Shown here one piece after another: positions 4,646 to 40,303 of a stretch of DNA of 64,000 nt. Within the stretch, counting starts at the first letter, position 1. Each line of letters starts with the position of its first letter. Made by a program: the position numbers and the translations under genes. The notes under the pieces were generated by a model. It made no database searches and was not told the DNA's origin. It worked only from the letters and a program-made list of their open reading frames with translations. Source of the stretch: Thermomicrobiales bacterium. Lineage in GTDB: Bacteria; Chloroflexota; Chloroflexia; Thermomicrobiales; UBA6265. The stretch spans positions 277,827 to 341,826 of the forward strand of contig JAHBVL010000003.1 in NCBI GenBank assembly GCA_019637585.1. The letters run 5' to 3'.

Positions 4646-5707
4646 ATGGCAACGATTCCGGTGTTCGACGGTCACAACGACACAGTCCTGTCGCTGCGGG
4701 AAACCGGCCGGTCCTTTTTCGACCGCTCCACCCAGGGTCACGTCGATCTCCCACGAGCCAATGATGGTGGGCTGATCGGTGGTTTTTTCGCAGTCTGGGT
4801 CCCCAATCCGGACGAAGCCGAGATCGATCCAGACAGCGACGATCTGACCACGAGCAGCTACGGCAGCGTCGAGTCGATGCCTCCTATTCTGCCGCTCGCC
4901 ACCGCCGAGCACTTCGCCCTCGATGCGCTGGCGACGCTGGCCGGCGTCGCCCGGGCGAGTGACGGCAAGGTCGCCATCGTCCGAACGGCGGACGACATCC
5001 GCCGCAACATGAAGAACGGCATCTTCTCGATGGAGCTGCACATCGAGGGCGCTGAACCGATCGACCCCTCTCTGAACACACTGGAAACCTTCTATCTGGC
5101 GGGGGTTCGGTCGATCGGCATGGTCTGGTCCCGCCCGAATGCTTTTGCCAACGGGGTCCCCTTCCAGTTCCCCGGAAGCCCTGACACCGGTCCCGGGCTC
5201 ACCGACGCCGGCAAAGCGCTGGTTGCCGCCTGCGATGAGCTTGGCATCGTCGTCGACATGTCCCACCTGAACGAAGCGGGCTTCTGGGACATCGCCGGTA
5301 TTTCGAAAAATCCGCTCGTCTGCACCCATTCGGGTGTGCACGCATTGAGCCCCTCGACCCGCAACCTCACCGACAAGCAACTCGATGCGATCAAGGACTC
5401 GGAGGGGATCGTCGGGGTGAACTTCCACGTCGGCTTCATCAATCGCGAAGGCAGCCGCGATCCTGACAAGACATCGGTCAGTCATCTCGCCGACCATGTC
5501 GACTACATGTGCGAACGGCTGGGAACCGACAAAGTCGCCCTCGGCTCCGATTTCGACGGCGCCACCATGCCGGGCGATCTGAAGGATGCCGCCGGTCTGC
5601 CCCTCCTCATCGAGGAGCTGGTCCGGCGAGGTTACGACGATGCGACCCTGCGGGCGATCGGCGTGGAAAACTGGCTCCGGATCTTCGACCGCACCTGGAA
5701 GAATTAA
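4646..5707 (+). CDS. Membrane dipeptidase (renal dipeptidase) family M19 protein
   Basis: A 353-residue zinc dipeptidase with a TIM-barrel fold. The first metal ligands are seen in FDGHNDT (His and Asp near residues 9-11), the bridging Glu in ELHIEGAEP near 135, and further His residues in DMSHLNE and CTHSGVH. LGSDFDG near 310 is also family-typical. The family hydrolyses dipeptides, often including D-amino acids or cysteinyl-glycine; the substrate here is unknown. No signal peptide is present, so a cytosolic location is likely. The start at 4646 follows GGGGA; a GTG at 4604 is in frame but lies upstream of the conserved N-terminus. Confidence 0.9.
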   Translation: MATIPVFDGHNDTVLSLRETGRSFFDRSTQGHVDLPRANDGGLIGGFFAVWVPNPDEAEIDPDSDDLTTSSYGSVESMPPILPLATAEHFALDALATLAGVARASDGKVAIVRTADDIRRNMKNGIFSMELHIEGAEPIDPSLNTLETFYLAGVRSIGMVWSRPNAFANGVPFQFPGSPDTGPGLTDAGKALVAACDELGIVVDMSHLNEAGFWDIAGISKNPLVCTHSGVHALSPSTRNLTDKQLDAIKDSEGIVGVNFHVGFINREGSRDPDKTSVSHLADHVDYMCERLGTDKVALGSDFDGATMPGDLKDAAGLPLLIEELVRRGYDDATLRAIGVENWLRIFDRTWKN

Positions 5708-5777
5708 GGCATGTGCTACGCTGGGCGGTCGCAACGGCCTCTTCGCGTGTCCGTTCGTTTCACTGCGCCCTGAGCTC

Positions 5778-6287
5778 ATGCCCGACGCACTTCAAACCGA
5801 CAACCACATTCTCTGGGCACTGATCGCCACATCGGTGGTGATGGTGATCACCCTGGAAGCGGTGCAATCCGCCGTCGAAGGAGCCTGGCCCCATCAGCGC
5901 CGGCCGAGCACGATGCTTCCTTCTGAGCGGACCGCGCACTCGCTGTGGGGAATCGTCGCGCTGGCATTGATTGCGGGCGGACTGTTGCTGATCGCCAATC
6001 TGGCCATCCTGCTCTGGAAAGACCTCGATCCCCTCGATATTCAGCGAGCAGGTGGTGTTCTTCTGGCTGTTGCCTGGGCGCTCTTCATGCTGGTCAGCAT
6101 CGATCGGTTTGGCATACGCCGCCACATGACCGCCATAGGTCTCGCCGGGCCGGTCGCGGCGATCGCCATTCTCACCGCGGCTATCGTGCTTCTTGCCCTG
6201 GCGCTCATAGACATCTGGCCGCCTACCGATGATTTCCGCGACGCGCTGCCAGTCATTCTGATCACGGCTCTCCGACGAGGCGGTTGA
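5778..6287 (+). CDS. Unknown four-helix membrane protein
   Basis: A 169-residue protein that I do not recognise. It has four clear hydrophobic segments at about residues 10-30, 55-80, 90-112 and 118-145, with a positively charged loop (HQRRPST) after the first. The frame is open further upstream, but that part overlaps the end of the dipeptidase gene in another frame, so the ATG at 5778 is preferred. It ends one base before the start of the MFS transporter and is probably co-transcribed with it. Its composition is ordinary for a small helper membrane protein; no function is assigned. Confidence 0.65.
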   Translation: MPDALQTDNHILWALIATSVVMVITLEAVQSAVEGAWPHQRRPSTMLPSERTAHSLWGIVALALIAGGLLLIANLAILLWKDLDPLDIQRAGGVLLAVAWALFMLVSIDRFGIRRHMTAIGLAGPVAAIAILTAAIVLLALALIDIWPPTDDFRDALPVILITALRRGG

Positions 6288-6288
6288 G

Positions 6289-7794
6289 ATGGTGGAAACG
6301 ACGCCGCCAGGCGAGCGCCCCAAACGCCGTCGGACCACCACGACCACCACCCAGCCGCCCGAACCAGCCCTGCCGCCCGAAGCACCGCGGACGATTCCGT
6401 CGCCGGACGGTCCGATCCTCCTGGCTCGCACATTGCCGAAAGAGCCAGAACCGGAAATCGCACCAGCAGCGCCGGCAATCGAACTCCCCGCTTCGCCTCC
6501 GTCGCTCTTTCAGAATCCGGCGTTTCAGGCCTTCTGGATTTCGAGACTCCTGATTCAGATCGCCCAGGGGGCGATGATGTATGCCCTGCTGGTGCTCGTC
6601 GTCGATACCGCGGGTTCGTCGTTTTACAACTCGATCTTCGTCATCTGCGCGGTGCTGCCGGCCATCTTCTTTGGATTGCCGGCCGGCGTCGCCGTCGACG
6701 CCGTTCCCAGACGCCCGCTGCTGGTGGCGCTGAATGTGGTGCGGTTTCTCTTCGTCATCTCGCTGGCGTTCCAGTTGCCGTCGATCGCCGGCATCTTCGC
6801 TACGGCGTTCGGCATCTGGACGATTCATCAGTTCTACGCGCCGGCCGAAGGCTCGACCCTTCCCGCGCTCGTCCCCACCAACCGGCTCACCGAAGCCCAG
6901 GCGCTTTCCAATCTGGCGCTGATCATCGCTCAGGCGGTCGGACTTGTGATCCTGGCGCCGCTGCTGCTGAAAACAGCCGGTCCGCAATATCTCTTCGCCA
7001 TCTGCGCCGCGCTCTTTCTCACCGCCGCATTTCTGGTGCTGCAGCTGCCACGCATCACCGATGCCTCGACCACGAGTCAGGCCCGCATGGCCGACGCCGG
7101 AATCGAGCAGGCATTGCTCTCTGGATTGCGAACCCTTATGGGAGACCAGATTCTCTTTCGCGTGACGCTGGTCGACATCATCGTTGGCATCGGGTTGAGT
7201 GCGCTGGTGGTCATCGCCCCGATCTATCTGACCAATATCCTCGACAGCTCATCGGAAAACACGGTTTTCGTCTTCGCGCCGGCGGCGATCGGGGTCATCG
7301 CCGGTCTCCGGCTGGCGCCATTCCTGAGCCGGCACATCGAGCTCCGGATGCTGGCCACACTGGGGCTCCTGATCTTTGCCGCATGCGTCGCGGCGTTCGG
7401 CTTTATGTCCGATATCTACCGGTTTCTGGTCGATACCCTACAGCTGCCGCTCGATGCGCTGGCCGACGCCGTCCGCATCGCACCACTGGCATTGATGGTC
7501 ATGCTCTTCTCCGTCCCCGCCGGGTTTTCGTCGTCAGTGGTTGGTGTTGCGGCTCGCACCACCACCCTGCTCCGCACCCCCACCGGATCTCAGGGCAAAG
7601 TGATCGCCACGCAGTCGCTCATGCAGAACATCGGAGCCCTGCTGCCGACCCTCGTGGCCGGCATCCTCGCCGACGTCATCGGCGTCGAGCGGGTGGCTAT
7701 CGTCATCGCCGTCCTGATGATCGCCGGCGCGTCAGCGACATTTCTGACGGGGCGGTTTACGCCGATGGCAAGGGGAATTGTTGATGGTGCATAG
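6289..7794 (+). CDS. Major facilitator superfamily transporter
   Basis: A 501-residue transporter with about 12 hydrophobic segments after a proline-rich cytoplasmic N-terminus of about 70 residues (repeated TTTT, PP and PE). The layout FQAFWISRLLIQIAQGAMMYAL followed by FFGLPAGVAVDAVPRRPLL (the MFS motif-A region) resembles the EntS/MFS_3 group of exporters. The substrate cannot be told. The gene follows the small membrane-protein gene without a gap. The last codons and the TAG stop lie inside a heptad repeat array, so the final VDGA residues are repeat-encoded. Confidence 0.88.
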   Translation: MVETTPPGERPKRRRTTTTTTQPPEPALPPEAPRTIPSPDGPILLARTLPKEPEPEIAPAAPAIELPASPPSLFQNPAFQAFWISRLLIQIAQGAMMYALLVLVVDTAGSSFYNSIFVICAVLPAIFFGLPAGVAVDAVPRRPLLVALNVVRFLFVISLAFQLPSIAGIFATAFGIWTIHQFYAPAEGSTLPALVPTNRLTEAQALSNLALIIAQAVGLVILAPLLLKTAGPQYLFAICAALFLTAAFLVLQLPRITDASTTSQARMADAGIEQALLSGLRTLMGDQILFRVTLVDIIVGIGLSALVVIAPIYLTNILDSSSENTVFVFAPAAIGVIAGLRLAPFLSRHIELRMLATLGLLIFAACVAAFGFMSDIYRFLVDTLQLPLDALADAVRIAPLALMVMLFSVPAGFSSSVVGVAARTTTLLRTPTGSQGKVIATQSLMQNIGALLPTLVAGILADVIGVERVAIVIAVLMIAGASATFLTGRFTPMARGIVDGA

Positions 7795-30166: not shown

Positions 30167-30249
30167 GCAACGCGCCGACGGTCGCGTCCAACGAGAATTT
30201 CACGAACAGTCGACGTTTTCGTTTGTGGCGCCTCAATCGGTGCATTTGC

Positions 30250-30500
30250 CCGCATTGACGGGGACCAGTACGCGTCACGCGTGCCAAAGCGACTCGGGGA
30301 TGGTGAGAGCCCGGGAATGGCATGACAGCGCCGAACGCGCCCTCGAGCGGCGAACCGAAGAAAGACGGCCGGCATCGCTGACCGATCAAGTAGGTTCTGG
30401 TGGGTGGCTCCCACGCAACATTCAGCCGAGAGATGCGCTTCACCTCCTGGAGCGCAAGAAGGGTGGTACCGCGAGGGCCGACGCTCCTCGCCCCTTTGGC
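30250..30500 (+). ncRNA. T-box leader, arginine specifier (CGC), apparently translational
   Basis: Stem I shows AGTA (30267-30270), the terminal-loop segment GGGGATGGTGAGAGCCCGG (30297-30315) and GAACGC (30333-30338), so the specifier reads CGC, arginine. The antiterminator is complete. AAGGG pairs with CCCTT, the bulge is TGGTACC, and GCGAGG pairs with CCTCGC (30459-30496). TGGT fits a tRNA ending ACCA. No terminator T-run follows. Instead CCCCTTTGGC (30491-30500) can pair with GCCAAGGGG (30548-30556), which is the argF ribosome site. Uncharged tRNA-Arg should therefore free translation. Confidence 0.9.
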
Positions 30501-30563
30501 CGGCGATATCGCATCGCAGGCGCCGCGCGTCTCGTCAGTGTCGCGAGCCAAGGGGAACGCACC

Positions 30564-31649
30564 ATGCCGGAACCTGTTTTTCTCAACCAGCCTGCTCCTG
30601 AGCCTGTGGCTCAGAGTTCCCGCGTTCTCCCCGATCTACGCGCTGTCGATCGATCCGAAGAGCTGCAAAGCAAATCACTGGGCGGTTCCACCGCTCCGGC
30701 GCTCCGGACCTTCACCATCAGCACCCGCCTGCGGGGCCGCAGTCTGGTGGAGGATGTCGATATCGCGCCGGACGAGATTCTCGATCTGCTGGACACCGCC
30801 GGACGGCTGAAACGGATGCATCACCGGGGCGAACCACATACCTATCTGCCCGGCAAAACGCTCGGGATGATCTTTCAGCATCCCAGCACCCGAACCCGGG
30901 TCTCCTTTGAGGCTGGTATGGCCCAGCTGGGCGGCACCGCCGTCTATCTCGGCGTCAACGACCTGCAGCTCAAACGAGGCGAAACCGTCGCCGACACCGC
31001 CCAGGTGCTGGGCCGGTATGTCGACGCCATCGTGGCCCGAGTGGTGCGGCACGAGCACATCGTCGAGCTCGCCCAGTTCGCCGGCGTGCCAGTGATCAAT
31101 GGTCTCTCCGATCGCAATCATCCGACCCAGGCGTTGGCCGATCTTCAAACGCTCCAAGAGCGGTTCGGTTCGCTGAAGGGACTCAATCTCGTCTATTTCG
31201 GCGACGGCAACAATGTCGCCGTTTCTCTTCTCCTGGCTGGCGCCGCAACCGGGGTCAATGTCACCGTCGCCTGCCCGGTCGGCTATCAACCACCCGCCGA
31301 CATCGTCACCCAGGCCAACTGGCTGGCGGCAGCAAGCGGCGCCACCGTGACCGTCACCGACGATGCCGAAGCCGCTGCCGAACAGGCGGATGCCATCTAC
31401 ACCGATGTCCACGTCAGCATGGGCCAGGACGACAGCGCTGCGCGCGCCGTCGCGCTCGCTCCCTATAAGGTGACGCGCCGGCTGATGAGCCTGGCCAAAC
31501 CCGAAGCCATCTTCATGCACTGCCTCCCCATGCACCGGGATGAGGAAGTGGAGGCAGCGGTGGTCGATGGTCCGCAATCGGTCGTCTTCGACCAGGCGGA
31601 AAACAGGTTGCACGCCCACAAGGCGTTGCTCCTGCAGATGTTGTGCTAA
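30564..31649 (+). CDS. argF: Ornithine carbamoyltransferase
   Basis: A 361-residue enzyme that makes citrulline from ornithine and carbamoyl phosphate. It shows the carbamoyl-phosphate motif HPSTRTRVSFEAG near 110, LGRYVDAIVAR, the DRNHPTQALADLQT block, and the ornithine-site HCLPMHRDEEV near 315. The N-terminus carries about 50 extra residues ahead of the usual start. The ATG at 30564 has AAGGGGA at 8 nt, and that site is the target of the T-box switch. It leads the LysW operon, which links that operon to arginine. Confidence 0.92.
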   Translation: MPEPVFLNQPAPEPVAQSSRVLPDLRAVDRSEELQSKSLGGSTAPALRTFTISTRLRGRSLVEDVDIAPDEILDLLDTAGRLKRMHHRGEPHTYLPGKTLGMIFQHPSTRTRVSFEAGMAQLGGTAVYLGVNDLQLKRGETVADTAQVLGRYVDAIVARVVRHEHIVELAQFAGVPVINGLSDRNHPTQALADLQTLQERFGSLKGLNLVYFGDGNNVAVSLLLAGAATGVNVTVACPVGYQPPADIVTQANWLAAASGATVTVTDDAEAAAEQADAIYTDVHVSMGQDDSAARAVALAPYKVTRRLMSLAKPEAIFMHCLPMHRDEEVEAAVVDGPQSVVFDQAENRLHAHKALLLQMLC

Positions 31650-31730
31650 ATCGAGCAATCGATTGGAAATGACGGCCGGAGAGAGTGGCTCGCCGGTCGA
31701 GGCAAACGAATGTGGAAAGGTATCAGAACC

Positions 31731-31904
31731 ATGAGTGCAGCAGCAGTTGAATGTCCGGAGTGTGGAGCAGAGCTGGAGACCGGCGGCGTTGAAACCGGCG
31801 AGATCATCGTCTGCGCCGAGTGCGGCGTCGAGCTCGAAGTGCTCAGCACCGATCCGGTCACTGTCGGACCAGCCCCCGAAGAGGGCGAAGACTGGGGCGA
31901 ATAG
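31731..31904 (+). CDS. lysW: LysW amino-group carrier protein
   Basis: A 57-residue carrier. Two zinc-binding CPECG and CAECG pairs form the core, and the C-terminus ends EDWGE, the signature whose final glutamate accepts the amino acid. In the LysW pathway glutamate or 2-aminoadipate is joined to this glutamate and then phosphorylated, reduced and transaminated while attached. The ATG at 31731 is preferred (GGAAAGG upstream); an in-frame ATG at 31710 would add seven residues. Its place right after argF favours an ornithine/arginine role. Confidence 0.95.
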   Translation: MSAAAVECPECGAELETGGVETGEIIVCAECGVELEVLSTDPVTVGPAPEEGEDWGE

Positions 31905-31937: not shown

Positions 31938-32786
31938 ATGGGAAAAGCCGGCATTCTGTGCGACAGGGTTCGAATCGAAGAAAAGGAAATTCTGGAAGCG
32001 CTCGAGCGCTTCGGAATTCCTTCGGCGACCCTGTCGCCCTCCGCGGTCCCCTTGGAGATCGCCCAATCAGTGGCCGCGACCACAAGCTTCAATGGCTTCG
32101 ATCTCCTCGTCGACCGTTGCCGCGACCGGACATCCGCCGGTCATCTGATGGCGGTCGCCAGCGATCTGGGGATGCCCGTGATCGGTGGCGGCACCGCCTC
32201 CTCCGGCAACAGACTGGATATCGCCCGGGCACTGAACCGGGCCGGGGTACCCCGTCCGGTGACCCTTCTCGCCTCCTCTGAGGAAGCAGGGATGGCGGCG
32301 TTGCAGTCGGTTGGCTATCCGGCCACCCTCTTTTCCCTGTCACCCAGCAAAGCGCCGCAGCCGGTGTTCGATGAGGACATCGCCGAAGCGCTTCTGGAAC
32401 ACCGGCACACCTTGCTGGCTCCGGCGGCGCGGACGATGCTCGTCCAGTCCGGATCACCAGCAAGCACGGAAATCGCCACCGTCGTCGTGATCGGCGGCAA
32501 CGCCGTCGCCACGGCAGCGGCCGGCAGGGAGAACCTGCGGGACGCGGCTGTCCAGCGACTGGCCGAACAGGCTGCCGCTGCGCTGGATGCCTCCCTGATC
32601 GGTGTACAGATCACCGAAATCGGCGGCGCGTTCGTGGTCTGGGATATCGACCCGGTTCCCGACTTCCGGGGCATGGTCGCCACAGGGGAGAGCAGCGTCG
32701 GCGAAGCGATCGCTCAGCTGGCGGCACAACAGCATCGAGATGACGTACGAGAGGAGGTCGCCAGTGGGATCGCCCTCTCTGTCTAG
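31938..32786 (+). CDS. Degenerate LysX-family ATP-grasp protein
   Basis: A 282-residue protein that is colinear with the LysX-type ligases encoded nearby ([48 protein letters not shown], a [17 protein letters not shown] end). Key parts are missing. The KPVxGSWGR nucleotide loop is replaced by [10 protein letters not shown], the KPGRDIR motif by ASTEIATVV, and the middle lid region is about 15 residues shorter. It is therefore probably not an active ligase. It sits between lysW and lysK, overlapping lysK by 23 bases, and its codon use looks normal, which argues against a dead gene. Confidence 0.75.
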
Positions 32787-33834
32787 CGACACAACCGCCA
32801 CCGACCAGCAGTCGATCGATCTGCTGCATGGCCTGGTCGGCATCCAGAGTTTGAGTGGCCAGGAGACTCAGGCAGTCGAGTGGCTGACCGCCCAGATGAC
32901 CGCGCTCGGTCTCGACGCGCATATCGATGACGCTGGCAATGCGGTCGGTGTGAAGGGCTCCGGACCGACCTCCATTGTGTTGCTCGGCCACATCGATACC
33001 GTGCCGGGCGATATCCCCGTACGGATCGACGACGGCGTGCTGCACGGCCGGGGCGCGGTCGACGCCAAAGGACCGCTGGCCACCTTTGTCGCCGCAGCGG
33101 CAGCGGCCAGTGGCATCAACGCCACGATCACCGTGGTCGGCGCCGTGGGCGAGGAATCGATTGGTTCGCTTGGCGCCAATCATGTGAAACACTGGCCCGC
33201 TCCCGATCTCTGCATCATCGGCGAACCAAGCGGCTGGGATCAGGTCTGTCTCGGCTATCGGGGCACGATCTCATTCGAGTATCTCCTGCGCCAGGACTCC
33301 CGGCACACCGCTGGACCGGGCGAATCGGTCGCGGAACAGGCAGTCGGATTCTGGAACGGTCTGACTGGCCGGCTGGCGGAGATCGACGGCGACCTGACCG
33401 GTTTCAACGCCATCGGCCCCGGTCTGCGCAGCTTCAACACCGCGGGAGACGGACTGCACGACGAAGCCCATCTCTCGGTGGGACTCCGCCTGCCCCCAGC
33501 CGTCCACTCGGAGGTCATCCTGCCGATCATCGACGAACTGGCCGGGAACGCCACCATCACCCTGCTCGGTGTGCAGGAGGGGTATCAGACCAACAAGCGC
33601 TCCCGCTTGACCCCTCCCTTCCTGCGAGCCATTCGGGCCCAGGGCGGCACACCCCGCTTTACCCGAAAACTCGGCACCTCTGACATGACTGTCGTCGGTC
33701 CCGTCTGGCAATGTCCGATCGTGGCCTACGGTCCGGGCGACTCGTCGCTCGACCACACGCCGGAAGAGCGGATCGTGCTCGACGACTACCTGAAAGCGGT
33801 TCGCATTCTCACCGATGTGTTGAACGACCTATGA
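32764..33834 (+). CDS. lysK: LysW-lysine/ornithine hydrolase (LysK), M20 family
   Basis: A 356-residue zinc peptidase that releases ornithine or lysine from the carrier. It has [11 protein letters not shown] (HxD), the bridging Asp in [16 protein letters not shown], the catalytic pair in [14 protein letters not shown], and [11 protein letters not shown]. The GTG at 32764 is preceded by GAGGAGG at 6 nt. The start lies inside the end of the preceding gene and the stop overlaps the next start as ATGA, so the genes are coupled. Confidence 0.9.
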
Positions 33835-34763
33835 CTTCGATGAATGGCCACCTTTCCAGAGGACCCCGGGACGGCACATTGCGTCTGGCTGTGCTCGTCT
33901 CCTACCTGCGCATCGAAGAGAAGCTGATTCTCGCCGCCGCCCGGGAACGGGGTGTCGACGTGCGCACGCTCATGGACCGGAAACTGGTGCTCGACATCAC
34001 CGCCGGAGCCTCACACCAACCCGATCTGGACGTCGATGTCGTGCTGGACCGGGGTGTGGCTCATTCGCGAGCCGCCTATACCCTGCGCGCGCTCGAAACC
34101 TGGGGTATCCCCACAATCAATCGCTCGTCGGCAACCGCAATCTGCGACGACAAAGCCTATTGCAGTCTGTCCCTGGCGGCGGCGGGTATTCCCACCCCGC
34201 GAACGCTCCTCGCCTTTTCTGTCGAATCGGGTCTGGAAGCGTGTGAAGCGATCGGTTATCCGGCCGTCCTCAAACCGGTGACTGGTTCCTGGGGCCGGTT
34301 GCTGACCAAAGTCAATGGCCCCGAACAAGCCCGGGTCATCCTCGAGCAGAAGCTCGAAGTTGGGTCGTTTCATCACGGCATCTTCTACGTGCAGGAGTTC
34401 CTGGAGAAACCGGGCCGGGATATCCGCTGTTTCGTCGTCGGCGACCGGGTGCTGGCTGCGTCCTACCGGGCGTCCGACCACTGGATCACCAACACCGCCC
34501 GCGGAGCGACCTCCCATGCCTGCCCGGTGACCCCCCAGATCGAAGAGCTCTCCTTGCGATCGTGCGCCTCTGTCGGCGCACGGATCGCCGGCGTTGACCT
34601 GATCGAGACCTTCGACGGCTACTCCGTCGTCGAAGTCAACACGGGCGGCGAATTCCATGGGCTCCTCTCGACGACCGAGGTGAACATCGCCGCAGAGATC
34701 GTCGAAGAAGCGGCGCGTTTGGGTCGTTCGGCCATGGCCGAACGGATGCATGCGGGGGACTGA
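33831..34763 (+). CDS. LysX/ArgX-family ATP-grasp ligase, paralogue 1
   Basis: A 310-residue ATP-grasp enzyme expected to attach an amino acid to the C-terminal glutamate of LysW. The catalytic features are intact: [11 protein letters not shown] near 150, [21 protein letters not shown] near 190, WITNTARG, and metal ligands in [17 protein letters not shown]. The substrate-side motif is [15 protein letters not shown], unlike the TMEFRN of the second paralogue. In an operon with argF and an arginine T-box, glutamate is the likeliest substrate (an ArgX role), but this is inference. Confidence 0.82.
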
Positions 34764-35136: not shown

Positions 35137-36030
35137 GTGCAAAGCAACCTGACTGTCGGCATTCTGATGTCCCGCGTTCGCGTGGAAGAAAAACTTCTGC
35201 TCGCCGAACTCGAGTCGCGCGGCGTCACCATCGCCCGCTTCGACGACCGCGATCTCTTTCTTGACATCGAGAAGCCGTCGATCGGCTGTGATGTCCTGCT
35301 GGAGCGAGCGATCAACCACCTCCGGGCACTCTATGTGCTGAAGGTGCTCAACGACTGGGGCGTGCCCACCGTCAACACCTATGACGTGGCCAACACCTGC
35401 GGCGACAAGCTCCTGACCACCACCGCGCTGGTTCGAAACGGCGTTCCCAGTCCTCGCACCATTCTGGCCTTCACCCCGGAGTCAGCATTGGAAGCAATCG
35501 ACGAGCTTGGCTATCCGGTAGTGATGAAACCGGCCGTCGGGTCGTGGGGACGTCTCCTCGCCCGGATCAATGACCGGGACGCCGCCGAAGCGATCCTCGA
35601 GCACAAGGTGACGCTCGGCTCTTTTCATCACGGCGCTTTCTACATTCAGGAATATGTGAAAAAGCCGGGACGCGATATCCGGTCCTTTGTCGTCGGCGAC
35701 GAAACCATCTGCGCGATCTACCGGACCTCCCCTCACTGGATCACCAACACCGCCAGAGGCGGGGCGGCCTCGAACTGCCCGGTCACACCCGAGATCGCCG
35801 AGATCTCCCTCGCCGCGGCCCGCGCTGTCGGCGGCGGTGTGGTTGCGGTCGACCTCCTGGAAAGCGAACGGGGATTGCTGGTCAACGAAGTCAACTACAC
35901 CATGGAGTTCCGCAACAGCATCGACACCACCGGCGTCAACATTCCAGCCAGGATCGTCGATTATGTTATCTCTGTCGGCAAGAACGGTCTGCCCGCGAGT
36001 TCCGACACGCTGGCCGCAGTGACACCATGA
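35137..36030 (+). CDS. lysX: LysX-family ATP-grasp ligase, paralogue 2
   Basis: A 297-residue ATP-grasp enzyme very close in layout to Thermus LysX, which joins 2-aminoadipate to LysW. It has [14 protein letters not shown] near 130, [56 protein letters not shown] and the substrate-loop [14 protein letters not shown]. The GTG start follows GGAGA. It leads the second T-box operon ahead of lysY, lysZ and lysJ. The motif suggests a lysine role, but in organisms with one LysX the same enzyme can serve both pathways. Confidence 0.88.
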
Positions 36031-36035
36031 TTCGC

Positions 36036-36070
36036 CAACAACTATGAACCATGCACTATCCACTATGCAC
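36036..36070. repeat. Heptad array, TATGCAC type
   Basis: Five 7-nt units in phase (CAACAAC, TATGAAC, CATGCAC, TATCCAC, TATGCAC) fill the gap between lysX and lysY, ending 10 nt before the lysY ribosome site. They are the same family as the arrays at 7892 and 38230. Confidence 0.85.
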
Positions 36071-36095
36071 TTCACAAAGTAAGGAGGTCCAACCC

Positions 36096-37145
36096 ATGAG
36101 ACTCAAAGTATCGATCGTCGGCGGATCGGGATATGGCGGCGGCGAGCTGGTCCGGCTCCTGCTCAGCCATCCGGGCGCCGAGCTGAAGCAGGCCACGTCG
36201 GAACGGAGCGCCGGCAAGTTCGTCCACACGGTGCACCCGAACCTGCGCAAGCGAACCCAGCTAAAATTCGTGGCCAGCGCCGACCTGGAGCCGTGTGACG
36301 TGCTCTTCATCGCGTTGCCGCATGGCGTTTCCATGACCCGGATGAGCGAATTCCAGCAGATCGCACCGATCATCATCGATCTCAGCGCCGACTATCGTCT
36401 CAACGATCCGGCCGGTTACCCGACCTGGTACAACCACGAGCACAACAACGCCGATCTCCTGTCGAAGTTCGTCTACGGCATCCCCGAGCTCCATCGCGAG
36501 GAGATTCGCAACGCCGATCTGATCTCCAGCGCCGGCTGCATGGCCACAACATCGATTCTGGGGCTCTATCCCCTCTTCCAGGCGGGCGTGGTCGACCTCT
36601 CGATCCCCGTCGTCATCGAAGCCAAAACCGGATCGTCCGGTTCGGGCGGCGCGCCGGGTCTGGCGTCCCATCACCCCGAGCGGCAGGGCGTGATGCGATC
36701 CTTCAAACCGACGGGACACCGCCACTCGGCCGAGATCATCCAGGAACTGACGGTCGACGGCAACGCTCCCACCATCGCCTTCTCCGCGACCTCGGTGGAA
36801 GCTGTCCGGGGCATCCTGGCCACCTCCCACGTCTATCTGAAAGAAGAACTCTCGGACAAAGAGGTCTGGTCGTTCTACCGGGCAGCGTTCAAGGAAGAGC
36901 CCTTCCTGCGCGTGGTCAAGGAATCGAGCGGTATCCACCGCTATCCCGAACCAAAGATCCTCTCCGGTTCGAACTACTGCGACGTCGGCTTCGAGCGCGA
37001 TCCCCACAGCAAACGAGTCGTCGTCATGTCAGCCCTCGACAACCTGATGAAGGGAGCCGCCGGTCAGGCCGTCCAGTCGTTCAATCTCCGCTGCGGATTC
37101 GAAGAAACCTGCGCCATCGACTTCCCGGGATTGCATCCGATTTAG
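36096..37145 (+). CDS. lysY: LysW-gamma-glutamyl/aminoadipyl phosphate reductase
   Basis: A 349-residue NADPH-dependent reductase of the ArgC/LysY family. It has the nucleotide loop VSIVGGSGYGGGELVRLLLSHP, the active-site cysteine in SSAGCMATTSILGLYPL near 150, GSSGSGGAPGLASHHPERQG, and a PTGHRHSAEI histidine near 215. The wide GxxG insert and SGSGGAP are typical of the carrier-linked branch. The ATG at 36096 has a perfect AAGGAGGT. It reduces the phosphorylated carrier intermediate made by LysZ. Confidence 0.92.
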   Translation: MRLKVSIVGGSGYGGGELVRLLLSHPGAELKQATSERSAGKFVHTVHPNLRKRTQLKFVASADLEPCDVLFIALPHGVSMTRMSEFQQIAPIIIDLSADYRLNDPAGYPTWYNHEHNNADLLSKFVYGIPELHREEIRNADLISSAGCMATTSILGLYPLFQAGVVDLSIPVVIEAKTGSSGSGGAPGLASHHPERQGVMRSFKPTGHRHSAEIIQELTVDGNAPTIAFSATSVEAVRGILATSHVYLKEELSDKEVWSFYRAAFKEEPFLRVVKESSGIHRYPEPKILSGSNYCDVGFERDPHSKRVVVMSALDNLMKGAAGQAVQSFNLRCGFEETCAIDFPGLHPI

Positions 37146-37295: not shown

Positions 37296-38114
37296 ATGCA
37301 ACACGGCTTCGTCATCACACAGGGAACAGCTGAAGAATTCGTCGAGCTTGCCGAGCTGATCGAGGCGTCGGGGTGGGACGGCGCGTTCGGGTGGGAGGTG
37401 GTTTATGGACTCGATCCCTGGGTCATCCAGGGCGCCATGGCGGTCAAAACGTCGCACGTCAAGCTGGGACCGCTCCTCACCCCACCATCGCGCCGCCGCC
37501 CCTGGAAACTGGCATCCGAGGTGGCCACGGTCGATCTGCTGTCCAATGGCCGAGCCGTCCTGATGATTGGCCTCGGCGATCCGGGAACGGGCCTCGCCGA
37601 TGTCGGCGAAGAAATCGATCGCCGCACCAGAGCCGAGCTCGTGGACGAATCGATCGACCTGATGCGGCATTTCTGGTCCGGCGAGCCATTCACGTATGAA
37701 GGCAAGCATTATCAGGTCGATTGGTCGTCGAAAAAGGACTGGGATGTCACGCCGGTCCAGCAACCACCACCGATCTGGACCGTCGCCCTCTGGCCGCATG
37801 AAAAGTCGATGAGCCGCGCGTTCCGCGTCGAGGGCGTTCTCCCCTACGTTCCCGGCGAAACGCCGATGCACAACGCCATCACCGCCGAGCACGTCGCCGC
37901 GATTCGCGCCGCCGCCACCGAGCGGAAGGGGCCAGATACGCCATTCGACATCGTCATGGAAGGCGTCACCCCCATCGGCGACACCGCTGCACTGGACAAG
38001 GTCCGCACGTTCCGTGATGCCGGCGCCACCTGGTGGATCGAATCGATGTGGGGCGCCCCGGGCGGAGTAGAAGCGTTGAAAGAGCGGATCAAAGCCGGAC
38101 CGCCGGAGGTGTAG
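37296..38114 (+). CDS. LLM-class flavin-dependent oxidoreductase
   Basis: A 272-residue luciferase-like monooxygenase or F420/FMN-dependent reductase. It shows the family opening (TAEEFVELAELIEASGWDGAFGWEV), LGPLLTPPSRRRPWKLASEVATVDLLSNGRAVLMIGLGD, and FTYEGKHYQVD. It lies between lysY and lysZ and on the same strand, yet no step of the LysW pathway is known to need such an enzyme. Both its flanks are filled with heptad repeats, so it may be a later insertion or a separate function. The family is certain; the role is unknown. Confidence 0.85.
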   Translation: MQHGFVITQGTAEEFVELAELIEASGWDGAFGWEVVYGLDPWVIQGAMAVKTSHVKLGPLLTPPSRRRPWKLASEVATVDLLSNGRAVLMIGLGDPGTGLADVGEEIDRRTRAELVDESIDLMRHFWSGEPFTYEGKHYQVDWSSKKDWDVTPVQQPPPIWTVALWPHEKSMSRAFRVEGVLPYVPGETPMHNAITAEHVAAIRAAATERKGPDTPFDIVMEGVTPIGDTAALDKVRTFRDAGATWWIESMWGAPGGVEALKERIKAGPPEV

Positions 38115-38275: not shown

Positions 38276-39097
38276 ATGTACATTCTGAAACTCGGCGGTG
38301 GCGCCGGAATCACCCAGGAAGCATTTAGCAATTTCGCGGCGGATTTGGCGACGCTGGAGGGCCAGTTTGTGGTCGTGCATGGAGCGAACGCTGAGTTCAG
38401 CCGTCTGAGTGAAGCGCTTGGCCAGCCGCCTCGCATGATCACGAACGAAAAGGGCCGCGTTTCCCGGTACACCGACCGCGAAACGATGGAAACGATGCTG
38501 ATGGCCTATTGCGGCAAGGTGAACAAACTCCTGGTCGCCACGATGCAGCATGCCGGCGTCAACGCCGTCGGCTTGAGCGGTATCGACGGTCACCTGGCCA
38601 CCGGCAAGCGGAAACCGGTCATTCGCGGTACGGAAGAGGGCAAGACCAAGGTGCTGCGCGACGATCACGCCGGTTCGCTCAAGGCGATCGACACCGCCCT
38701 GGTCACCCTCCTCACCGGCGCCGGCTACCTGCCGGTGTTGACTCCCCCGGCTCTCGACCTGGACGAAGGCACGCCGATCAATGTCGACGGGGATCGTCTC
38801 TCGCTCGAGCTGGCGCTGGCGCTGGGCGCCGAAGGGCTGATCTTTTTCGCCGACACACCAGGACTCTTGCGCGACCGGGATGATGAATCGTCGTTGATCG
38901 AAGAGATCGACGCATCCGACCCCGACAAGGCGATGGAAGCCGCGCAGGGCCGCATGAAAGTCAAAGTCGAAACAGCGGTGAAGGCGGTCGAGCAGGGCAT
39001 CGGGCGCGTGATCTTTGCCGACGGGCGTACCAGCCGTCCGGTCAGCGATGCGCTGGCCGGACGAGGCACGGTTGTCCGAAACGTCCACCATTCGTAA
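38276..39097 (+). CDS. lysZ: LysW-gamma-glutamate/aminoadipate kinase
   Basis: A 273-residue kinase of the acetylglutamate-kinase family that phosphorylates the carrier-bound amino acid. It has YILKLGGGAGI at the N-terminus, FVVVHGANAEFSRLSEALGQPPR, the NVDGDRLSLELALALGAEGLIFFADTPGLL nucleotide-binding block and GRMKVKVETAVKAVEQGIGRVIFADG near the end. The order lysX-lysY-lysZ-lysJ follows that of known LysW clusters apart from the inserted LLM gene. Confidence 0.92.
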   Translation: MYILKLGGGAGITQEAFSNFAADLATLEGQFVVVHGANAEFSRLSEALGQPPRMITNEKGRVSRYTDRETMETMLMAYCGKVNKLLVATMQHAGVNAVGLSGIDGHLATGKRKPVIRGTEEGKTKVLRDDHAGSLKAIDTALVTLLTGAGYLPVLTPPALDLDEGTPINVDGDRLSLELALALGAEGLIFFADTPGLLRDRDDESSLIEEIDASDPDKAMEAAQGRMKVKVETAVKAVEQGIGRVIFADGRTSRPVSDALAGRGTVVRNVHHS

Positions 39098-39118: not shown

Positions 39119-40303
39119 ATGACCGCCCCATTTCCCACACTTCAGCTCGATCTGATTGCCGAGATCGAACGAGACCGGCAGCTCCCCCTCTACGCCAAGC
39201 GGGATATCGCGCTCGTGCGCGGCGAAGGAGCCTATCTCTTCGACTCGGCAGGAAACCGCTATCTCGATGCCATGAGCAACTACGGCGTCGCCGCGCTCGG
39301 TCACGCCGATCCCGAGTACACCGGTGCCCTTCTCGACCAGCTGCAACATCTCACCACCTGCCATCAGAGCTTCTACAACGACGCCAGAGCCGCCGCACTT
39401 GCCGCCATCGGCCAGATCGCACCGGCAGGTCTGAACCGCACTTTTTTCTCCAACTCCGGGGCGGAAGCGATCGAAGCGGCCATCAAGTTCGCCCGGGTAA
39501 CCACCGGCCGCAATCACTTCGTCGCAGCCCGGCGTGGCTATCACGGCCGCACCCTGGGAGCGCTGGCAATCACCGCCGATCCGAAATATCGCGGTCCGTT
39601 CGAGCCATTCGGCGCCGAGGTGACTCACGTTCCCTACAACGACGCCGAAGCCATCGAAGCCGCGATCACCGAGCAGACTGCCGCGGTGATTCTCGAGCCG
39701 ATTCAGGGTGAAGCGGGCGTCTATCCGGGCGAGGAGGCGTTCCTGCGAGCCGCCCGCACCGCGGCGACGACCTATGGCGCCCTCTTCATCGCCGACGAGA
39801 TCCAGACCGGATTTCGGACTGGCGCGCCCTTCGCCATCTCCGCCTCCGATGTGACTCCCGATATCCTCTGTTCGGCCAAGGCCATCGCTAATGGCTTTCC
39901 GATTGGCGTCACCCTGGTCACCGATGCGGTGTCGGAAGCGGTTCCCGCAGGAACGCACGGCACCACCTTCGGGGCCAATCCGCTGGCCTGCCGGGCGGTG
40001 GTGGCCACACTCGACGCCTTCGAAAAACGAAATCTCTACGCTAACTCCACCGCGATTGGCACGAAACTGATCGAATCAATCGAAGCGCTTGGCAGTCCCA
40101 AGATCCGCGCCGTGCGCGGCCGGGGACTGATGATCGGCGTGGAGTTGAAAGAACGCGTCACCCCAACCCTCAAAGCCATGCAGGAACGGGGCGTCCTCGC
40201 GCTGCCCGCCAGCCCGGTCGTCTTCCGCCTCCTGCCCCCGCTCATCTGGGGGGATGAGCAGGTCGACGAATTCGTGACTGCGCTGGAGGGCGCCCTCGCC
40301 TGA
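39119..40303 (+). CDS. lysJ: LysW-gamma-lysine/ornithine aminotransferase
   Basis: A 394-residue class III PLP aminotransferase that converts the carrier-bound semialdehyde to the amine. It shows YLDAMSNYGVAALGHADPEY, FFSNSGAEAIEAAIKFAR, RRGYHGRTLGALAIT, EPIQGEAGVYP, LFIADEIQTGFRTGAPF and the PLP lysine in ILCSAKAIANGFPIG near 260. THGTTFGANPLACR is also typical. It is the last gene of the second T-box operon. ArgD-type enzymes look alike; the context decides the call. Confidence 0.9.
   Translation: MTAPFPTLQLDLIAEIERDRQLPLYAKRDIALVRGEGAYLFDSAGNRYLDAMSNYGVAALGHADPEYTGALLDQLQHLTTCHQSFYNDARAAALAAIGQIAPAGLNRTFFSNSGAEAIEAAIKFARVTTGRNHFVAARRGYHGRTLGALAITADPKYRGPFEPFGAEVTHVPYNDAEAIEAAITEQTAAVILEPIQGEAGVYPGEEAFLRAARTAATTYGALFIADEIQTGFRTGAPFAISASDVTPDILCSAKAIANGFPIGVTLVTDAVSEAVPAGTHGTTFGANPLACRAVVATLDAFEKRNLYANSTAIGTKLIESIEALGSPKIRAVRGRGLMIGVELKERVTPTLKAMQERGVLALPASPVVFRLLPPLIWGDEQVDEFVTALEGALA

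Follow-up and report, generated by a model that had tools for sequence, protein, structure and literature searches.

LysX and ArgX ligases (TIGR02144; PDB 3vpd, 3vpb and 5k2m) are linked to the protein described here by common descent, a LysX_preATP_grasp domain, a lysW neighbour and, as judged from a predicted model, the ATP-grasp fold (Z 24.6-25.5). According to a study on haloarchaeal ArgX, the ligase reads the EDWGE tail of the carrier LysW through its GSWGR motif, and the choice between glutamate and aminoadipate is set by a five-residue signature (PMC10433800). RimK, the ribosomal protein S6 glutamate ligase, also has the ATP-grasp fold in common with our protein (Z ~22). Published descriptions of LysW pathways include one or two active ligases. 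In prozyme-type pseudoenzymes, such as the AdoMetDC prozyme of trypanosomes, complex formation and activation have been shown.

Here we analysed a 64,000-nucleotide stretch of a Thermomicrobiales genome (GCA_019637585.1, contig JAHBVL010000003.1), hereafter the window, in which a degenerate LysX-like protein, named PS in this work, is encoded between lysW and lysK. PS is a conserved pseudo-ligase with a fixed place in the operon and, as far as we searched, it had previously gone unremarked. The PS protein was not found in a literature search on LysW ligases and inactive ATP-grasp proteins, which covered few subscription papers and did not bring up the paper on the ArgX structure. The lysW of PMC5584792 is an unrelated transporter.

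Results and Discussion

A LysX-like gene without the ligase motifs lies between lysW and lysK

The features of the locus are as follows.

31710..31904, + strand: lysW, carrier protein with an EDWGE end (TIGR01206, 69.1 bits, cut-off 53.2)
31938..32786, + strand: PS, 282 aa, single open frame
31947..32006, + strand: PS residues 4-23, first strand and helix, RxRxEE(K/R) (alignment entropy)
32322..32369, + strand: PS residues 129-144, former KPxxGSWGR segment, now variable (alignment)
32370..32417, + strand: PS residues 145-160, DxDxAEAxxEHRxxLG helix, best-conserved stretch of the PS family (alignment, model)
32753..32766, + strand: GGAGG, likely ribosome-binding site of lysK, and lysK GTG start, within the PS 3′ end (sequence reading)
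32764..33834, + strand: lysK, [LysW]-lysine/ornithine hydrolase (NF003367, 411.8 bits, cut-off 363)
33831..34763, + strand: X1, intact LysX/ArgX-type ligase, EFHGL signature (Gly after EFH, ArgX-like)
35137..36030, + strand: X2, intact LysX-type ligase, TMEFRNS signature
36051..37145, + strand: presumably a lysY/argC-like reductase, named from sequence and operon position (ORF; gene order conserved)
38276..39097, + strand: a gene that we take to be a lysZ/argB-like kinase (ORF; gene order conserved)
39119..40303, + strand: presumed lysJ/argD-like aminotransferase (ORF; gene order conserved)

An earlier note, made from the letters alone, had described a LysX relative between lysW and lysK, and its coordinates, frame, Pfam and TIGR02144 matches bear this out. 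Pfam recognised LysX_preATP_grasp alone in PS (39.3 bits, cut-off 27) and did not find the RimK ATP-grasp domain that both paralogues have. Compared with LysX/ArgX, PS scored 73 bits against TIGR02144, below the cut-off of 275.6, versus 304 and 346 for the paralogues, and compared with RimK it reached 51.6 bits against TIGR00768 (cut-off 143.4) and carried no catalytic motifs. Alignment of the three proteins confirmed that KPxxGSWGR and KPGRDIR are gone from PS and kept in both paralogues, as the note had stated; NTARGG and the EVN metal ligands are likewise absent from PS and retained by X1 and X2. None of five residues that we assume, from the ATP-grasp family, to act in metal/ATP binding (K91, K131, D180, E251 and N253, X2 numbering) is present in the window PS (0/5), and GSWGR is missing from it and from 41/41 aligned copies. 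The note had called KPxxGSWGR the nucleotide loop; the loss stands, and the label is imprecise for the entire stretch because GSWGR recognises the EDWGE tail of LysW, according to PMC10433800.

The PS gene starts 33 bp downstream of lysW, for which an alternative ATG start is possible at 31731, and its 3′ end overlaps lysK by 23 bp (GTG at 32764); the ribosome-binding site and start of lysK also lie inside the PS 3′ end in relatives from the window's family (f1). This overlap, a GC3 of 0.75 like that of the neighbouring genes and a codon-adaptation score versus the operon of 0.61 for the PS frame (0.49 and 0.45 for the other two) agree with the overlapping genes and the maintained frame and codon use that the note had reported. 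A search of the window's genome (3.94 Mb, 33 contigs) with a PS query at E 0.001 gave no match beyond PS, X1 and X2. We considered a C-terminal G-V-V-L-S-A tail of the f1 copies as a protein motif and rejected it, because the DNA there is the lysK ribosome-binding site, start and first codons read in another frame; at window positions 32753-32786, lysK signals in another frame mimic a conserved PS protein tail.

PS is more acidic than its paralogues, with a net charge of -9 to -11 (f1, f3 and f5) versus -4.6 for X1 and -6.6 for X2. It is also lysine-poor: the mean count is 2.0-2.6 (f1, f3+f5) versus 6.9-9.6 in X2 and X1, that is, about 2-3 per 270-330 residues versus 7-10 in intact ligases (38 PS copies, f1/f3/f5).

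PS orthologues occupy the same position across the order

Alignment-based queries were run against 61 genomes of the order Thermomicrobiales and 158 of the class. In the window's family, a single PS query matched 24 of 32 genomes; 21 of these 24, window included, hold a PS-type gene, and the 20 orthologues beside the window's are ~32-43% identical in the alignment, with open frames. Across the order, score, position and reading together placed PS in 42 of 61 genomes (21 in f1, two in f2, two in f3, one in f4 and 16 in f5), and frames were open in the copies read. Among the 19 PS-less genomes, 12 had no LysX-type match at E 1e-25, including G037, in which part of X1 sits where a contig ends (L217); the remaining seven have an unassembled slot or yielded X2 alone (L166, L173, L174, L215, L216, L220 and L221). 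All 40 assembled lysW-lysK intervals in the order (39 plus the window, with four duplicate loci entered once) hold a gene without KPxxGSWGR. Two further PS copies are interrupted by contig ends (L050 and L051), and in G006 PS is split over two contigs, one part beside lysW (L222) and the other beside lysK (L050).

No PS was confirmed outside the order, either in the class search (158 genomes) or in a 400-genome draw from the phylum. At E 1e-70, 13 of the 24 matches in this draw lay outside the order, and the eight of them that were examined (L213, L214 and L223-L228) all carry either GSWG followed by R or, in some cases, a near-identical loop that matched KPxxGSWGR. A scan that used f1 patterns found KPxxGSWGR in 60/60 non-order loci, among the matches listed (80 of 183). 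A second intact copy of LysX lies apart from lysW in two genomes from beyond the class (L223:5551-6435 and L224:9202-10080); in it, NTARTG replaces NTARGG and the signature is MEFRGF.

PDB 5i47, deposited as 'RimK domain protein ATP-grasp' from Sphaerobacter thermophilus, contains a stretch that matches by eye the slot gene of L155, located between lysW and lysK, indicating that a degenerate PS orthologue has already been expressed and solved. It is of the f5 type, whereas the window PS is of the f1 type (~30% identical). Our literature search found no paper naming 5I47 or describing its function. Since a RimK-type ATP-grasp label sits on at least one solved structure, the catalytic annotation of the PS family needs checking. 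A pseudogene or assembly artefact was rejected because the gene recurs in 42 genomes, several of them in few contigs, and one orthologue has been crystallised. A phage or mobile origin was also rejected; PS had no phage match, and its matches to plasmids were three in number and weak, one lacking an annotation and the others annotated as ligases (RimK family and LysX).

PS is under purifying selection and its conservation pattern is inverted

Nei-Gojobori estimates for overlapping pairs of relatives gave a PS dN/dS of 0.10-0.45 with a median of 0.16 (16 pairs, 16/16 below 0.46), compared with 0.02-0.19 and a median of 0.07 for X1 (14 pairs). Purifying selection acts on PS at about half the strength seen for X1; with PS changing about twice as quickly as the neighbouring genes, the constraint is moderate. 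Conservation within the protein is inverted. The most conserved 15-column windows of PS are 145-159 and 4-18, and mean entropy is lower than in intact ligases at residues 145-160 (0.83 versus 1.21 bits) and 1-26 (1.23 versus 1.41; 38 copies of f1/f3/f5 in both cases), so that segments 4-23 and 145-160 are tighter than in working ligases. The former active-site segments drift, with 2.18 versus 0.92 at 161-200 and 2.17 versus 0.80 at 129-144, GSWGR conservation in the intact set coming in part from row selection because X1 and X2 rows without KPxxGSWGR were excluded. A relaxed gene would hardly be expected to gain conservation in any part, and neither the broken frames nor the dN/dS near 1 of a decaying pseudogene is seen.

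The model of PS, built from 41 sequences, was confident (pLDDT 91.8, pTM 0.90) and predicts that PS keeps a complete ATP-grasp fold. Structure comparison, also performed by Foldseek, matched it to LysX 3vpd (Z 25.5, rmsd 2.8 over 262 residues), ArgX-LysW 3vpb (Z 25.1) and 5i47 (Z 24.7), three scores that lie within 1 and are tied. At the former substrate signature, F243 and R244 are kept in 95% and 100% of PS copies, and in the cleft, Lys131 and Arg182 are each kept in 89% of f3/f5 copies. Neither of the outcomes that the earlier note had named as refuting was seen: orthologues at the same operon position exist in 42 of 61 genomes, and dN/dS is low rather than relaxed. PS is very probably a maintained, non-catalytic protein.

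The slot probably once held a ligase

A tree of 120 proteins was built with the 41 usable PS copies and 18 other-Chloroflexota rows picked from 60 loci. Neither the tree nor the intact set includes duplicates (L006, L017, L021 and L172), proteins shorter than 220 or longer than 500 aa, or those X1/X2 rows, cut or frameshifted, that lack KPxxGSWGR. The 41 PS copies fell on one side of one branch (support 99/95), with f1 as one group (100/99) and f1 + f3 + f5 as another (100/99); PS branches are long in the ligase trees. Six loci of f14, a different family within the class, carry an intact TMEFRNS-type ligase in the slot, followed by lysK and X1; lysW is visible in five of the six, and X1 is split by a frameshift in L206. 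The X1 proteins of f14 and of the order form a single clade (100/99). An intact LysX in the same slot of a sister family indicates that the slot once held a ligase, which degenerated in place; an ancestral order lysW-lysX-lysK-argX, followed by decay of the lysX copy where it stood, would account for this most simply. X2 lies after X1 in f1 and G038, beside lysJ in f2/f4 and outside the operon in f5.

The degree of loss differs among families. In 94 intact ligases, 47 columns are conserved to at least 95%; of these columns, 74% are kept in f2+f4 (3 rows), 43% in f3+f5 (18) and 33% in f1 (20). In the f2+f4 copies, two GSWGR residues (S and W) and three HWITNTARG residues (H, N and A) are already missing, and K91, K131, K176, D180 and E251 are retained. 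In f1, f3 and f5, K91 (Arg in most copies), K176, D180, E251 and N253 are lost in all copies, and in f1 the ITNTARGG segment is mostly deleted and pocket residues are mostly variable. Loss of carrier recognition therefore seems to have preceded that of the ATP site, an order suggested by few f2/f4 rows, because these lost GSWGR residues, which read the carrier tail according to PMC10433800, yet keep the five residues above. The f2 and f4 copies might still bind ATP. The series from f2/f4 through f3/f5 to f1, with one structure solved, constitutes a graded natural record from ligase to non-enzyme.

Rate covariation favours X1 as a candidate partner of PS

Covariation of evolutionary rates was calculated for the 9 to 12 genomes with all genes named, from pairwise distances that are non-independent. 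When LysY distances were removed in f1 (n=11), r was 0.74 for PS-X1, 0.55 for PS-LysK, 0.41 for PS-LysW and 0.18 for PS-X2; with LysY and LysZ removed (n=9), the values were 0.68, 0.48, 0.34 and -0.04, respectively. Under a mean-of-others control in f1 (n=9), PS-X1 ranked second of 21 pairs (0.55) after LysY-LysZ, and PS-X2 was last (-0.15); without LysZ (n=11), PS-X1 was first of 15 (0.66). Partial covariation was weaker in f5 (PS-X1 r 0.34-0.56), with PS-LysZ equally strong, and under the mean-of-others control (n=10) PS-X1 was fourth of 21 (0.39), just under PS-LysZ (0.41). A run without the window gave 0.73 for PS-X1 and 0.29 for PS-LysK in f1, and all three pairs were high in f5. In this small sample, covariation leans towards X1, and not X2, as the partner of PS.

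The earlier note had suggested a non-catalytic partner of LysW or of the active ligase. A maintained, non-catalytic protein agrees with our data, and the choice of partner leans, from covariation, to the ArgX-type ligase and, from the absence of GSWGR and the acidity of PS, away from the LysW tail. If PS bound LysW as a chaperone or scaffold and passed the loaded carrier to LysK or other enzymes, its place, which in every assembled operon is immediately between lysW and lysK, the lysK start within the 3′ end of f1 PS and the positive covariation with both proteins in some f1 tests (0.41 and 0.55) would fit. We nevertheless consider this unlikely: GSWGR, the reader of the LysW tail in PMC10433800, is missing from all 41 PS copies, which counts against a LysW-tail adaptor, the charge of PS is unfavourable for docking an acidic carrier, and PS-LysW covariation is weak in other tests. 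Constant proximity and, in f1, gene overlap could also point to the hydrolase LysK, with PS as its partner or as a subunit that sets its specificity. The r of 0.55 in one f1 test falls to 0.27 under the mean-of-others control, however, and the overlap also provides the lysK ribosome-binding site, so that contact between the two proteins is not implied and such a role looks improbable.

Because the lysK ribosome-binding site and start lie within its 3′ end, PS might even be a mere leader, translated to fix where lysK starts and with no role as a protein; 282 codons under purifying selection, with protein conservation far from the 3′ end, where a short leader would suffice, make this very improbable. 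A sensor that holds a nucleotide or amino acid in the old cleft and controls flux would be in line with the complete predicted fold, the kept F243/R244 and the Lys131/Arg182 found in most f3/f5 copies, but ITNTARGG is largely deleted in f1 and most pocket residues are variable there, and we rate it as rather unlikely, somewhat below the LysW scaffold. Order-wide retention in exactly one place probably reflects a helper role and not a broken gene. The reading that we prefer, and to which we give an even chance, is that the pseudoenzyme PS serves the ArgX-type ligase X1 as a non-catalytic subunit or as its regulator; that it is a partner of X1 is proposed, from rate covariation, a shade more tentatively.

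Proposed role and pathway context

ArgJ was not found in 61/61 genomes of the order, in a search whose control matched in 10 of 14. Canonical homocitrate synthase was above the cut-off in 1/61 genomes of the order, and dapB was present in 23/61, the window's genome included. The absence of ArgJ and an ArgF-like gene adjoining lysW fit a LysW-based synthesis of arginine, in which X1 (EFHG/EFKG signature) would be the glutamate ligase.

In the reading that we prefer, an ancient LysX between lysW and lysK turned into PS in place, shedding carrier recognition, substrate recognition and metal binding, and the protein still folds and is kept by selection. With X1 as the partner, PS would bind it via the conserved helix at 145-160 and the conserved segment near the N terminus (4-23), and would tune the loading of LysW with glutamate by X1 for arginine synthesis. 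X1 is intact, and presumably functional, without PS in f14, so PS is no general requirement of X1. More speculatively, the order may possess a hetero-oligomeric ligase composed of an active ArgX-type subunit and an obligate inactive ATP-grasp subunit, evolved in two steps in which carrier recognition was lost with the ATP site kept (f2 and f4) and the ATP site was then lost (f1, f3 and f5). This would add a layer of prozyme-like control where the LysW pathway is entered. As with the AdoMetDC prozyme, an inactive paralogue lies beside an active enzyme as its proposed tuner; complex formation and activation, shown for the prozyme, are putative for PS. A third, inactive ligase relative found order-wide suggests an unrecognised subunit or control point in LysW pathways.

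The window has a single ornithine-carbamoyltransferase-like gene upstream of lysW (30225-31649), and many f1 relatives have a tandem pair there (for example, L033:4073-5683 and 5684-6715); in four such loci that were inspected, STRTR and HCLP motifs occur in both genes of the pair. Among the loci scanned, a gene between LysY and LysZ that we take to be F420/luciferase-like is present only in the window (37296-38114) and in L036:12482-13396.
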